A stretch of 64,000 bases of DNA from Pantoea endophytica. Lineage in GTDB: Bacteria; Pseudomonadota; Gammaproteobacteria; Enterobacterales; Enterobacteriaceae. The stretch lies in assembly GCF_002858935.1 (NCBI RefSeq), contig NZ_PJRT01000005.1, forward strand, positions 434,001 through 498,000, read 5' to 3'. The notes below the pieces were generated by a model, which was not told where the DNA came from, did not search any database, and worked only from the letters and a program-made list of their open reading frames with translations. The position numbers and the translations under genes are program-made. Shown here piece after piece: positions 4,247 to 35,579 of this stretch. The first letter of the stretch is position 1, and each line of letters begins with the position of its first letter.

Positions 4247-4266
4247 GGTCGCCATTCATGGCGACC
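4247..4266. repeat. Palindromic repeat family B between convergent genes
   Basis: GGTCGCCATTCATGGCGACC is a near-perfect palindrome between the converging 3' ends of the ABC ATPase and eptA. Similar copies lie at 14035, 23380 and 35553. At this site it could act as a bidirectional terminator. Confidence 0.7.
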
Positions 4267-13990: not shown

Positions 13991-14034
13991 ATTTCACCTT
14001 CGTTTATGGATGAAAGTGGATCACGTTAAACCAA

Positions 14035-14060
14035 GTCGCCATAAATGGCGACCCTACAAA
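14035..14060. repeat. Palindromic repeat family B
   Basis: GTCGCCATAAATGGCGAC followed by CCTACAAA. It lies between the start of the GNAT gene and the stop of the VOC gene. Same consensus as the copy at 35553. Confidence 0.75.
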
Positions 14061-21625: not shown

Positions 21626-23248
21626 TTAGTGTTTTTCCAGCCACGCGCCGTAGAACGACGGACGACCCACGGCTTCAAAATTCACGCCTTTCAGCCACGG
21701 CGCACCGGCAAACACCTGCGGTTCTTCAAAGATCGGAATCAGATAGGCCTGATCGAGCAGATAGCGCTGCGCCTCGCCGGTCACCGCCAGGCGTTTCGCC
21801 GGATCGACTTCCGAGGAGATCCCCAGCAACAGCGTGTTCAGCTTGTCGTCGCGGAAGTTTTGCACCTTGTCGCTGGAGCCGCCTTTTTGCAGCAGCGCAT
21901 CACGGTTAGTCGGATAGAACTGGCTCTTCACCACGTCAGGATCGGCGCGTCCCACTTCGGACACCACCAGCGGGGTTTTCAGCGGATCGAGGTTATCCAG
22001 CACGCGGCTGCCGGCATCACCGGCTTTCACCGCCAGCGCGACGCCAACCTGACGCCACTGCTGTGCCACCAGCTGCAGCACCTCTTTGTTCTGCGGCTGC
22101 GGCAGCGATTCATAAATGGTCAGCGCCAGTTTCTTGCCATCCTTCTCGCGAATGCCGTCGCTGCCCGGTTTCCAGCCCGCTTCATCCAGCAGCTTTTTCG
22201 ATAACGCCGGATCGAATTTCAGCTTGTCGGCCAGATTGACGTAACCGGCCGCCGAGGTGGCGATCACCGACGTGGCCTGCGGATAGTTCGGTGAGAACAG
22301 GGTTTGCACCACTTGCTGAGCGTTGGTGGCGTGCAGCAGCGCCTGACGTACTTTCACATCGCTGACCAGCGGGTTATCCGGGCGGAAGCTGATGCTGTCG
22401 TTAACGCCACGCGTGGGTGCAGCGTAAATCGGGAAGTTTTGCTGCTGCGCCTGCTTCTCGTCGTAGGCTTGCACCTGACGAATAAAGTCGGCCTGACCGG
22501 CCAGCAGCGCGCCAATACGCACGCTGTCTTCCGGCGTGACGATGAATTTAATGCCGTCGAGATTGGCGGGACCTTGCTGGGCGAGGTTTTTCGGGCCCCA
22601 TTGATAATCTTTGCGCGCGGTTAAATCGACCTCGCGGCCGAGTTTCTCATCGCTGACCACAAATGGACCGGAACCAATAATATGACGCGCATCGCCGAGT
22701 TGGTCGAAGCTACGCTGCAGCGTACTGAGGGAAACCAGGCCTGAACCGATGGTAGCGGTGCCCTGTAAAAAACCGGGAGATGGCTTTTTGAAATAGAATT
22801 TCACCGTCTGAGGATCAATAACTTCACTGCGGTCGTAATTATTGATCACTTCGGAAACCGGCAGGCGCTGGGCTTTATTTCCCAGACCGTAAGTATCAAA
22901 GTTTTTGGCTACCGCTTTAGCATCTAAGGGCGTGCCATCAGAGAAGGTGACGCCGGGACGAATTTTAAAGGTATATTCGGTTTTATCGGCGTTACTGCTC
23001 CAGCTTTCGGCAATCCACGGTTCCACTTTTAAGGTTTCAGGATTCTGCCACGTCAGCTTATCGGTAATTTGATTCAGAATACCGCCATTGGGATAAAAGC
23101 CACCGGCGGGTGGATAAAGGTTGGTATGTGCCTGTTGTTCGAGGTAAACCAGCGTGCCGCCTTTGACGGGCGTGTCTGCCGCGTGGGCGCTAAAAATCCC
23201 TGATAGCAGGGCCAAACTCAACGCCTGCAAGTGAAAATGCTTAGTCAT
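21626..23248 (-). CDS. Dipeptide-type ABC transporter substrate-binding protein (KPN_01854-like)
   Basis: Periplasmic binding protein of the SBP_bac_5 family, first gene of the leftward operon. I start it at 23248 because AGGG lies about eight bases upstream; a Sec signal peptide (LQALSLALLSGIFSAHA) follows. The mature chain opens with KGGTLVYLEQQAHTNLYPPA and has FKIRPGVTFSDGTPLDAKAV, the family signature. From memory it matches the KPN_01854 family, which accompanies luciferase-like monooxygenases. The ligand is unknown; a sulfur-containing peptide or conjugate is inferred from the operon's enzymes. Confidence 0.88.
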   Translation of the reverse strand: MTKHFHLQALSLALLSGIFSAHAADTPVKGGTLVYLEQQAHTNLYPPAGGFYPNGGILNQITDKLTWQNPETLKVEPWIAESWSSNADKTEYTFKIRPGVTFSDGTPLDAKAVAKNFDTYGLGNKAQRLPVSEVINNYDRSEVIDPQTVKFYFKKPSPGFLQGTATIGSGLVSLSTLQRSFDQLGDARHIIGSGPFVVSDEKLGREVDLTARKDYQWGPKNLAQQGPANLDGIKFIVTPEDSVRIGALLAGQADFIRQVQAYDEKQAQQQNFPIYAAPTRGVNDSISFRPDNPLVSDVKVRQALLHATNAQQVVQTLFSPNYPQATSVIATSAAGYVNLADKLKFDPALSKKLLDEAGWKPGSDGIREKDGKKLALTIYESLPQPQNKEVLQLVAQQWRQVGVALAVKAGDAGSRVLDNLDPLKTPLVVSEVGRADPDVVKSQFYPTNRDALLQKGGSSDKVQNFRDDKLNTLLLGISSEVDPAKRLAVTGEAQRYLLDQAYLIPIFEEPQVFAGAPWLKGVNFEAVGRPSFYGAWLEKH

Positions 23249-23379
23249 GGTGTTTCCCTTTTTAATCAATAGCCCGACGGGCGGTTTTCATCATTGAATG
23301 CCGCACACGGGAGTTGAACCAAGGAATTGCACTAAGCTTTGCTAAAAAAAATAAATAGGCGTTCTATTCATACGATGGG

Positions 23380-23394
23380 GCGCCATAAATGGCG
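23380..23394. repeat. Palindromic repeat family B, short copy
   Basis: GCGCCATAAATGGCG, the core of the family B palindrome. It lies upstream of the binding-protein gene and next to the large palindromic element. Confidence 0.55.
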
Positions 23395-23454
23395 TAATGC
23401 TTATTAGCTAAGCCATTGGCGATGGCGCTGACCGGTGCCACTTTTGGTCCGGCG

Positions 23455-23849
23455 GTCCTCGCGCCGCTTACGCGGTACCTTCACTTCGCTCGTCTGCCTG
23501 ACGGACCGGCGGAGACGGGACGTCCTGTCCCGGCTCCGCCTTTCGCCCGCGTCCTGCGGGCTCTCCTGGCTTCCTCGCTTCGTTCAGCGCTGCGGATTGC
23601 CGGCCCAAAAGCGGCCCCGGCCTGCTCCAAACCTTCAGTGCGTGTTGTTGAAAAGGGCACATTTGCCAGAGGCGCTGACGCGTCTGCTGCGGCAAAAGGG
23701 CTATCCGCAGCGCTGAGGCTTTTACGTTGGGCCAGGAGCCTCACGCAGGGATGCGTGAGGCAGTTCGGGGCCGGCCAGGACGGCCGATCCCCGAATGATC
23801 CGTCGGCACGACGTGAAAGCCGAAGGTACCGCGCTAGCGGTGCGAGGAC
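23455..23849. repeat. Large GC-rich nested palindromic element (MITE-like or structured RNA)
   Basis: The ends, 23455-23482 and 23822-23849, are inverted repeats matching at 25 of 28 positions. Inside, each half has two hairpins in mirrored order: left 23508-23540 (loop GTCCT) and 23545-23561 (loop GTCCT); right 23739-23760 (CCTCACGC/GCGTGAGG) and 23764-23795 (loop AGGAC). A perfect 14-bp arm pair at 23584-23597 and 23703-23716 encloses a core of about 105 bases. Left and right hairpins differ in sequence but keep pairing. Open frames exist on both strands, but none has a ribosome-binding site or family resemblance. It lies between two leftward operons. Confidence 0.75.
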
Positions 23850-23915
23850 GGCCCGTGACGCAGTAGATGTGTCAGAGCCCGCAGCAGATTTAAAGCACAA
23901 TGATTTGACCGGTTG

Positions 23916-25202
23916 TTACATCACGCCCATTAAACGCGGTAGCCATAGCGATAACGCCGGAATATAGGTAATCAACATCAGCACAATAAACAACACGCCA
24001 TAGAAAGGCAGCATGGCGGTGACCACTTGCTCAATCTTTTGCTTACTCACGGCGCTGGCGACAAATAATACCGTGCCGACCGGTGGCGTAATTAAACCGA
24101 TGCCTAAGTTGGTTAGCATTATCATGCCGAAATGCACCGGATCGACGCCGAGTGCGGTGGCTACCGGTAATAGTACCGGCGTCAGAATCAGGATCAGCGG
24201 TGCCATATCCATTAGCGTCCCCACCACCAGTAGCAGCAGATTAATGCACATCAAAATCACATACTTGTTACTGGAAAATTGGGTAAAGGCTTCGGTAATA
24301 ATGGTGGGTAATTGCATAAAGGTCATTACCGCACCAAAACCGGCGGCGAAGGCGATCAACACCATCACAATGGTTACCGTTTTGATGGTACGAAACACCA
24401 GGATATGCAATTGCGTCCATTTGAAATCACGATAAATAAACATGGTGACAAAGAACGCCCAGATGCAGGCAATGGCTGCCGATTCCGAGGCGGTGAAAAC
24501 GCCGGACAGAATTCCGCCGAGAATGATGAAAATGGTGAACAATCCCCAAAACGCATCGAAGAAGATTTTCAACGCCTGCTTGTAAGGGATGCGCTCGCCT
24601 TTGGGATAGCCGCGTTTACGCGCAAATCCCAGGCACATTACCATTAAGCAAAAACCCAGTAACAGGCCAGGAATGATGCCGGCGACAAACAACGATGAGA
24701 TGGTGACAACACCGCCGGTGGCGAGCGAATAAATCACCGAATTGTGGCTGGGCGGGGTTAACACCGCTTGTACCGAGCCGCTGGCCGTTACCGCCGCAGC
24801 GAAGTCACGCGGATAGCCTTTCTCCTCCATCTGCGGAATCATCACGGAACCAATCGAGGCGGTATCCGCCACCGAAGAACCCGAAATCGCGCCAAAGAAG
24901 GTTGAGGCGACAATATTCACCAGCGACAAACCGCCGCGAATAAAACCAACGAAAATATAGGCAAAGTTGACCAGCCGCCGGGCAATGCCGCCTTCCGCCA
25001 TAATCGCACCAGCCAAAATGAAGAACGGAATGGTTAACAGTGAAAACTTATTAATGCCGTTGGTAATCTGAATCACCACCGCTTCCAGTGGTAAATCGAT
25101 CCACCATGCCCCGATAAACGCGCTCAATCCTACGGCAAATGCCACCGGGAAACCCACCAGCAGTAATACCACCAAACTGCCTATCAAAATCAGTGCGTCC
25201 AT
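23916..25202 (-). CDS. TRAP transporter large permease, DctM type
   Basis: Inner-membrane subunit of 428 residues with about a dozen hydrophobic helices, providing the transport path driven by the sodium gradient. Typical DctM stretches are LVVLLLVGFPVAFAVGLSAF at the start, FAYIFVGFIRGGLSLVNI and FFGAISGSSVADTASIGSVM in the middle, and NLGIGLITPPVGTVLFV near the end. It is the last of three genes (binding protein, small permease, large permease), 12 bases after the small permease. The substrate is an organic acid that cannot be read from this subunit. Confidence 0.93.
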   Translation of the reverse strand: MDALILIGSLVVLLLVGFPVAFAVGLSAFIGAWWIDLPLEAVVIQITNGINKFSLLTIPFFILAGAIMAEGGIARRLVNFAYIFVGFIRGGLSLVNIVASTFFGAISGSSVADTASIGSVMIPQMEEKGYPRDFAAAVTASGSVQAVLTPPSHNSVIYSLATGGVVTISSLFVAGIIPGLLLGFCLMVMCLGFARKRGYPKGERIPYKQALKIFFDAFWGLFTIFIILGGILSGVFTASESAAIACIWAFFVTMFIYRDFKWTQLHILVFRTIKTVTIVMVLIAFAAGFGAVMTFMQLPTIITEAFTQFSSNKYVILMCINLLLLVVGTLMDMAPLILILTPVLLPVATALGVDPVHFGMIMLTNLGIGLITPPVGTVLFVASAVSKQKIEQVVTAMLPFYGVLFIVLMLITYIPALSLWLPRLMGVM

Positions 25203-35552: not shown

Positions 35553-35579
35553 GGTCGCCATAAATGGCGACCCTGCAAA
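35553..35579. repeat. Palindromic repeat family B
   Basis: GGTCGCCATAAATGGCGACC followed by CTGCAAA. It lies between the converging ends of the coiled-coil gene and the EAL gene and may act as a terminator for both. Confidence 0.75.

Follow-up and report, generated by a model that had tools for sequence, protein, structure and literature searches.

The question raised by this locus is whether a 395-bp nested palindrome at 23455-23849 of the window (the whole 64,000-nucleotide stretch of Pantoea endophytica DNA analyzed) is a mobile MITE-like element, a large DNA cruciform or a structured RNA, the three readings offered by the original prediction. The geometry was as described there: the end arms (23455-23482 and 23822-23849) are 28 nt long and complementary at 25/28 positions, and a perfect 14-bp pair (23584-23597 and 23703-23716) flanks a 105-nt core. 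Arm pairs of at least 25/28 with an outer span of 300-420 occurred once in the window and 0 times in five shuffled windows. The symmetry was also seen as a 55-nt arm pair (23451-23505 and 23799-23853) with 75% complementarity and an inner pair of 18 nt with 94%. Folded as RNA, positions 23445-23859 reached -253.6 kcal/mol compared with -188.4 ± 6.7 kcal/mol for 100 shuffles (z = -9.7). The palindrome is real and beyond chance; the 395-bp span covers no more than the inner part of a longer element of approximately 23395-23905 (other copies: 519-618 bp), the left end of which was placed by aligning copies at 23395, 60 bases outside the predicted limits.

Within the 395 bp, a single structured-RNA unit occurs in two diverged copies, set back to back on opposite strands. 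Both matched the TwoAYGGAY family (RF01731; gathering score 43): 46.8 bits on the minus strand at 23493-23568 and 45.7 bits on the plus strand at 23693-23845. Scanning 20 loci with RF01731 at E<=0.01 gave 21 matches in 15 loci, of which 20 reached 43 bits, and none in L013, L017, L018, L064 and L065. On its sense strand each unit contained, in order, CGCAGCGCTGA, GCCAGGAG, hairpin 1, hairpin 2, CGGTCCGTC, GAAGG, a CCGC/GCGG hairpin and CGAGGAC. Folded singly, the right unit had z = -7.5 and the left unit z = -3.1; a full copy is predicted to fold with the outer stem of one unit paired to that of the other and with the four hairpins kept local, an arrangement in which the UCC loops may mask the GGA loops. 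The facing GTCCT and AGGAC loops pointed out earlier are present (GTCCT at 23455, 23522 and 23551; AGGAC at 23777 and 23845), and do not form a separate feature, their complementarity arising because two copies of a unit with GGA loops are inverted. The features of the window copy are listed in Table 1, in which R1 denotes a model of these units.

Table 1. Coordinates of the window copy, its parts and the adjoining genes.
Feature	Position	Strand	Details
Left half of target site, palindrome GGGCGCCATAAATGGCG	23378..23394	+	Variant of the dispersed 20-bp palindrome GGTCGCCATNNATGGCGACC
Left IS4-type terminal inverted repeat TAATGCTTATTAGCTAAG	23395..23412	+	Slightly degenerate; matches ends of E. 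coli IS4 and related IS4-type elements
Left arm, stem closing the left module	23432..23453	+	19/22 complementary to 23599-23620
Left RNA unit, TwoAYGGAY-type	23455..23594	- (sense)	R1 model 136.2 bits
Left unit hairpin 2	23508..23540	-	Tip GGGAC-AGGAC-GTCCC on sense strand
Left unit hairpin 1	23545..23561	-	GCCCGC-AGGAC-GCGGGC on sense strand
Centre between units	23595..23705	.	Poorly conserved in alignments
Right RNA unit, TwoAYGGAY-type	23706..23849	+ (sense)	R1 model 141.5 bits
Right unit hairpin 1	23738..23761	+	Loop AGGGAT
Right unit hairpin 2	23763..23796	+	Loop AGGAC
Right subterminal part	23850..23905	+	Homology to other copies ends near 23900-23906
TRAP transporter large permease gene	23916..25202	-	Name from the matching Pantoea sp. 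SS70 plasmid record
ABC transporter substrate-binding gene	21626-23269 (as ORF)	-	Other neighbour of the palindrome

Compensatory change was measured on an alignment (A1) of 81 of 100 distinct units; the other 19, from genomes already represented, were omitted by hand. The 32 consensus pairs were paired in 96.5% of cases (81.8% when shuffled), and 17 pairs showed double changes (11.9 when shuffled). The covariation score was 0.383 compared with 0.140 for shuffles (0/500 as high), a contrast that the relatedness of the units overstates, and slid versions of the structure scored at most 0.069, a control biased towards the consensus structure, which was derived from the same alignment. With right and left unit types separated by one rule (T in columns 57-60), double changes were found inside both: at 11 pairs among the 38 right-type units and at 14 pairs among the 43 left-type units. 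The structured-RNA guess was thereby supported. Departures from Watson-Crick pairing on the sense strand were G-U 105 times and A-C 16 times (30 and 16 without two G-U-rich pairs), and this bias gives moderate backing to action as RNA on the sense strand.

The units resembled TwoAYGGAY in having two adjacent, covarying hairpins with GGA loops and conserved bases beside them. GGA was present in 80/81 hairpin 1 loops and 74/81 hairpin 2 loops (lost in 1/81 and 7/81, respectively), while the adjacent bases varied. By hand count, the CsrA-type motif A(N)GGA lay in the loop of 74/81 hairpins 1 and 65/81 hairpins 2. Tandem G-A pairs in the TwoAYGGAY stem are mentioned in the accessible part of a 2014 paper (PMC4333381), and by eye a stem of this kind seems possible in the left-type units.

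Protein coding was rejected. Open frames of 183 aa on the plus strand and 139 aa on the minus strand cross the window copy; a plus-strand frame of any kind is open from end to end in only 6 of 45 full copies, the window copy included, and the lengths of these 45 copies are spread over all three classes modulo 3. The SS70 record annotates a "hypothetical protein" across the left edge of the element.

The element is dispersed. In the own genome (5.1 Mb, 31 contigs), a 511-bp query gave 48 matches, a number that includes second, inverted hits within a single copy. Six copies were near full length (88-100% identity), and others consisted of a left or a right part only. Right-half copies lacked the stretch between 23432-23453 and 23599-23620 as a block; since half copies miss one half in this way, the element appears modular. 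Full or partial matches were present in 47/60 genomes of the genus (own included) and in 47 plasmid records, all of them from Pantoea, among them Pantoea sp. SS70 (100%) and SO10 (99.6%). A DNA search of 5,426 E. coli genomes returned zero matches to the element. A single-copy sequence devoid of covariation, named in the original prediction as the outcome that would count against it, was thus not what was found.

Aligned copies ended in TAATGCTTGTCAGTTAAG...CTTAACTGACAAGCATTA, 18 bp long with three variable middle bases. These ends match those of IS4 in E. coli K-12 (TAATGCCAGTCAGTTAAG and TAATGCCGATCAGTTAAG; the K-12 element is flanked on each side by ATCTTGGTTCTG) and those of IS4-type elements elsewhere in the genus (TAATGCTTGTCAGTTAAG and TAATGCCGATCAGTTAAG). 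Terminal repeats of the IS4 family were therefore present at the level of the element family, and at the left end only in the window copy, which is without the right end repeat and the right target duplication. The same gene pair occurs without the element in Pantoea sp. X85 and SOD02 (in SOD02 the gap holds solo palindromes), and the C-terminal residues of the gene at 23916 are identical in both; it follows that the window copy lost its right end, near 23905. A search for the IS4 N-terminal domain (PF13006) found none in the own genome, hence no autonomous partner there, and the family may therefore be immobile in this genome now. The domain was present in 4/40 genomes searched, three of them of the genus.

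Other repeats with the same type of end were also observed. A sister IS4-ended MITE (L061, L062, L063, L066, L098, L099, L109 and L111) lacks an RNA unit and has a core of 130-136 bp; the cores read (L061-L063 and L066) contain a further palindrome of the GTAGCGGCGC...GCGCCGCTAC kind. A second long repeat (L064/L132 and L065/L133) carries one weaker TwoAYGGAY-type unit (R1 59-61 bits), which in L064 adjoins an IS4-type left end like that of the element. One more own-genome unit (L106, G000:C9:158000-158700; R1 64.7 bits) is adjacent to an IS4-type end and to palindrome remnants.

In total, 53 end pairs were kept among the loci: 30 from RNA-carrying elements, 16 from short sister elements, 2 from IS4-type elements and 5 others, the last being mostly chance pairings of ends. 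Direct repeats of 11-14 bp (flanks at least 85% alike) bordered 18 of the 30 RNA-carrying elements, compared with a mean of 2.5 and a maximum of 7 for re-paired flanks; the remaining 12 had no clear duplication. The other kinds gave 11 (sister), 2 (IS4-type) and 0 (others). Altogether 31 of the 53 pairs had such flanks (re-paired: mean 6.6, maximum 12), or 20 under a stricter rule (re-paired: 2.6, maximum 8). Re-paired flanks match at times because the targets are alike, and the control for the sister set was high (mean 5.2, maximum 9/16) because its targets resemble each other.

The usual target in the own genome was the palindrome GGTCGCCATNNATGGCGACC. Matches to its first 17 bases numbered 121 forward and 125 reverse in the own genome, counts in which a full palindrome scores on both strands, compared with 3 and 0 for a reversed control. 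Solo copies in the window lie at 4247-4266, 14034-14053 (one mismatch) and 35553-35572; by eye, solo copies often follow genes. The palindrome family is REP-like, and no RAYT gene was found in the own genome. Some targets were atypical and nevertheless duplicated exactly: GCACCATCAGGTCC (14/14) at an RNA-carrying element (L187), and CACCATAATGGGTG (L101) and CGCCATAAATGACG (L111) at sister elements. When sites were rejoined, 26/30 formed a hairpin of at least six pairs around the duplication, compared with 36% of base-shuffled sites. Several targets in other Pantoea species resemble intrinsic terminators, for example AAAAAGGGCGACGCAAGTCGCCCTTTTT at L189. An A-run together with a T-run was found at 6 of the 23 element sites examined (L184, L189, L190, L191, L196 and L210) and at one of two IS4-type sites (L140).

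An empty site was also recovered. Copy L004 is flanked on both sides by CGCCATGAATGGCG, and a relative (G122, locus L244) has a single palindrome and no element there; the flanks are 93.8% and 96.1% identical and the variable palindrome bases agree. Among 24 other loci compared with L004, 22 had both flanks, and the gap matched the element in 6 and not in 16. Taken together, the ends, the duplications and the orthologous empty site establish the anatomy of the element and its past mobility. That solo palindromes are mere deletion products was rejected as a general account, given the exactly duplicated atypical targets (L101, L111 and L187) and the orthologous solo site (L244), and may apply to individual cases.

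The units also occur outside Pantoea. Across the order, RF01731 at E<=0.001 matched 28/119 genomes, 19 of them above the gathering score and with up to 19 matches per genome, and 0/14 controls. Across the family, sampled at one genome per genus with the own genome included, R1 matched 32/119. Divergent pairs were found in 6/14 loci of other genera (L228, L229, L232, L234, L235 and L241). L235 combined a divergent pair with IS4-type ends and an exact 13-bp duplication, CTGTCAGCGGGGG; in L232 the ends are IS4-like and the duplication is less exact. Both IS4 ends were detected in 2/14 of these loci and in 0/840 shuffled loci; the other 12/14 had no end pair at the stringency of the test, which overlooks degenerate ends such as those of own-genome locus L227. 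Carriage by IS4-type ends is thus not general. Among the matches listed, neighbouring units at most 700 bp apart were divergent in 8 cases, tandem in 10 and convergent in 0 with R1, and divergent in 7, tandem in 13 and convergent in 0 with RF01731. An avoidance of convergent arrangements is at most an apparent rule here, since the "tandem" matches of one genome (G257) are in fact three divergent unit pairs arrayed approximately 550 bp apart (L228, 213-1644).

Gene context was assigned by a rough rule that took, on either side, the longest ORF (90 codons or more) lying within 450 bases. Of the 22 own-genome copies and fragments, 21 were faced by one or two gene 3' ends: 13 lay between two 3' ends, seven between a 3' and a 5' end, and one had a 3' end on its sole resolved side. 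The remaining one lay between two 5' ends. At the window copy the right-hand gene alone points at the element. For the window copy, a consensus scan of 23260-24010 found no sigma-70-like promoter, internal or adjacent; any transcript is therefore expected to originate in the neighbouring genes. As the units diverge, a transcript from either side would pass the antisense unit first and the sense unit after. The own genome had one csrA match.

On these observations the family is a non-autonomous IS4-type MITE with a divergent TwoAYGGAY-type pair as cargo, and it probably acts as a mobile 3'UTR cassette offering GGA hairpins to CsrA. An IS4-type transposase acting in trans would have moved the element into hairpin-forming DNA at gene ends, where it would become the 3'UTR of a read-through mRNA; at the window copy, read-through from the TRAP permease gene would enter it. 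We infer that the element is transcribed and that its units are bound by CsrA. Because the units diverge, transcription from either side would yield an RNA with one sense unit, the paired GGA hairpins of which would bind a CsrA/RsmA dimer. The outcome could be titration of CsrA, or a host mRNA with altered stability or an altered 3' end. An element inserted in a terminator would have the terminator hairpin on each side of it but the T-run at the far side only, so that read-through could end after the element.

Comparison with known systems places the element between several of them. TwoAYGGAY is listed as "probably" a biological RNA, and the accessible text of that source (PMC2864571) describes neither mobility nor divergent pairing; the units here, by contrast, occur in many copies, form pairs and lie within a transposable element. 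CsrA binding has been proposed for TwoAYGGAY from motif matches (PMC4333381, accessible part). Motifs given for CsrA in the available portion of PMC7652899 are RUACARGGAUGU, ANGGAN hexaloops and the CAGGA(U/A/C)G repeats of CsrB; most SELEX ligands reported in the same portion have at most four contiguous stem pairs, and the stems here are longer. CsrB and RsmX-type RNAs share the GGA-loop hairpins, and RF01731 and rsmX both belong to Rfam clan CL00106; the present units differ in being dispersed and mobile, with two hairpins each and no promoter-like site found. IS4 (insG of E. coli) and related IS4-type elements share the 18-bp ends and the 11-14-bp target duplication, and one of them (L140) also lies in a terminator-like hairpin; the element here differs in having no transposase gene and an RNA pair inside. 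Insertion of an IS4-family element, ISRm22, into REP palindromes is described in the accessible part of PMC1525189.

A further likeness was with the MITE-like repeat YPAL/RU-2 of Yersinia, which has target duplications at dyad symmetry. YPAL is approximately 168 bp long and is reported to be expressed with upstream genes (PMC2229807, accessible part), and the sequence printed in PMC2759123, as far as available, shows by eye two GGA-loop hairpins like the units here. YPAL-like loci differ in matching RF02770 (Ysr224) on the strand opposite the GGA loops. YPAL was rejected as the same family, none of 10 YPAL-like loci matching RF01731 or R1 at E<=1. The own genome also has YPAL/RU-2-like repeats with cores 82-86% identical (G000:C25:378316, C27:90236, C11:118979 and C20:23584).

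Three other accounts were weighed. That the folded RNA of a MITE does no more than protect or trim the 3' ends of host mRNAs, with GGA incidental and CsrA uninvolved, is possible and rather unlikely: the very stable fold and the position of copies after genes agree with it, as do effects on RNA stability attributed to YPAL and ERIC repeats of Yersiniae in the available text of PMC2229807 and PMC2267715, but it leaves unexplained why GGA is nearly invariant while neighbouring loop bases vary, why both diverged unit types retain it, and why RF01731 shares a clan, CL00106, with rsmX. Purely selfish DNA, whose hairpins would aid transposition or protect the element with no role as RNA, is improbable. 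It would account for the IS4-type ends, the target duplications and the patchy distribution; the units of other genera are mostly without IS4 ends, however, and the loops are conserved, to which the excess of G-U over A-C on the sense strand adds a moderate argument. Mobilization as a REPIN/BIME-type element by a RAYT tyrosine transposase, suggested by the abundant REP-like 20-bp palindrome at the ends, sometimes after GTAG, is very improbable and was rejected, as the ends are IS4-type with 11-14-bp duplications, the targets in other species are other palindromes, and a search for Y1_Tnp (PF01797) was negative in the own genome and positive in the E. coli control.

The preferred reading, an IS4-type MITE carrying a CsrA-directed RNA pair, joins two of the three initial guesses. 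The MITE-like one was borne out by dispersed copies, IS4-type ends and family-level target duplications, and holds jointly with the structured RNA; a cruciform as DNA structure is not favoured. The anatomy of the element accounts for the palindrome without a special cruciform. A bolder extension, held only tentatively, is that of a transposon-borne, direction-blind CsrA sponge: jumps into terminators would add CsrA sites to the 3'UTRs of both neighbours, and the family would help to set the pool of free CsrA. No report of TwoAYGGAY as transposable-element cargo or in divergent pairs was found among the papers listed in searches of the mostly open-access literature, and a word search of the available text of a 2024 review of prokaryotic MITEs (PMC10969869) gave no mention of CsrA, IS4 or Pantoea. 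The findings tie an orphan RNA family, TwoAYGGAY, to a concrete carrier, an IS4-type element, and to a concrete target, palindromes that include some terminators. They also point to a possible route through which a mobile element may supply many 3'UTRs with sites bound by a global regulator.
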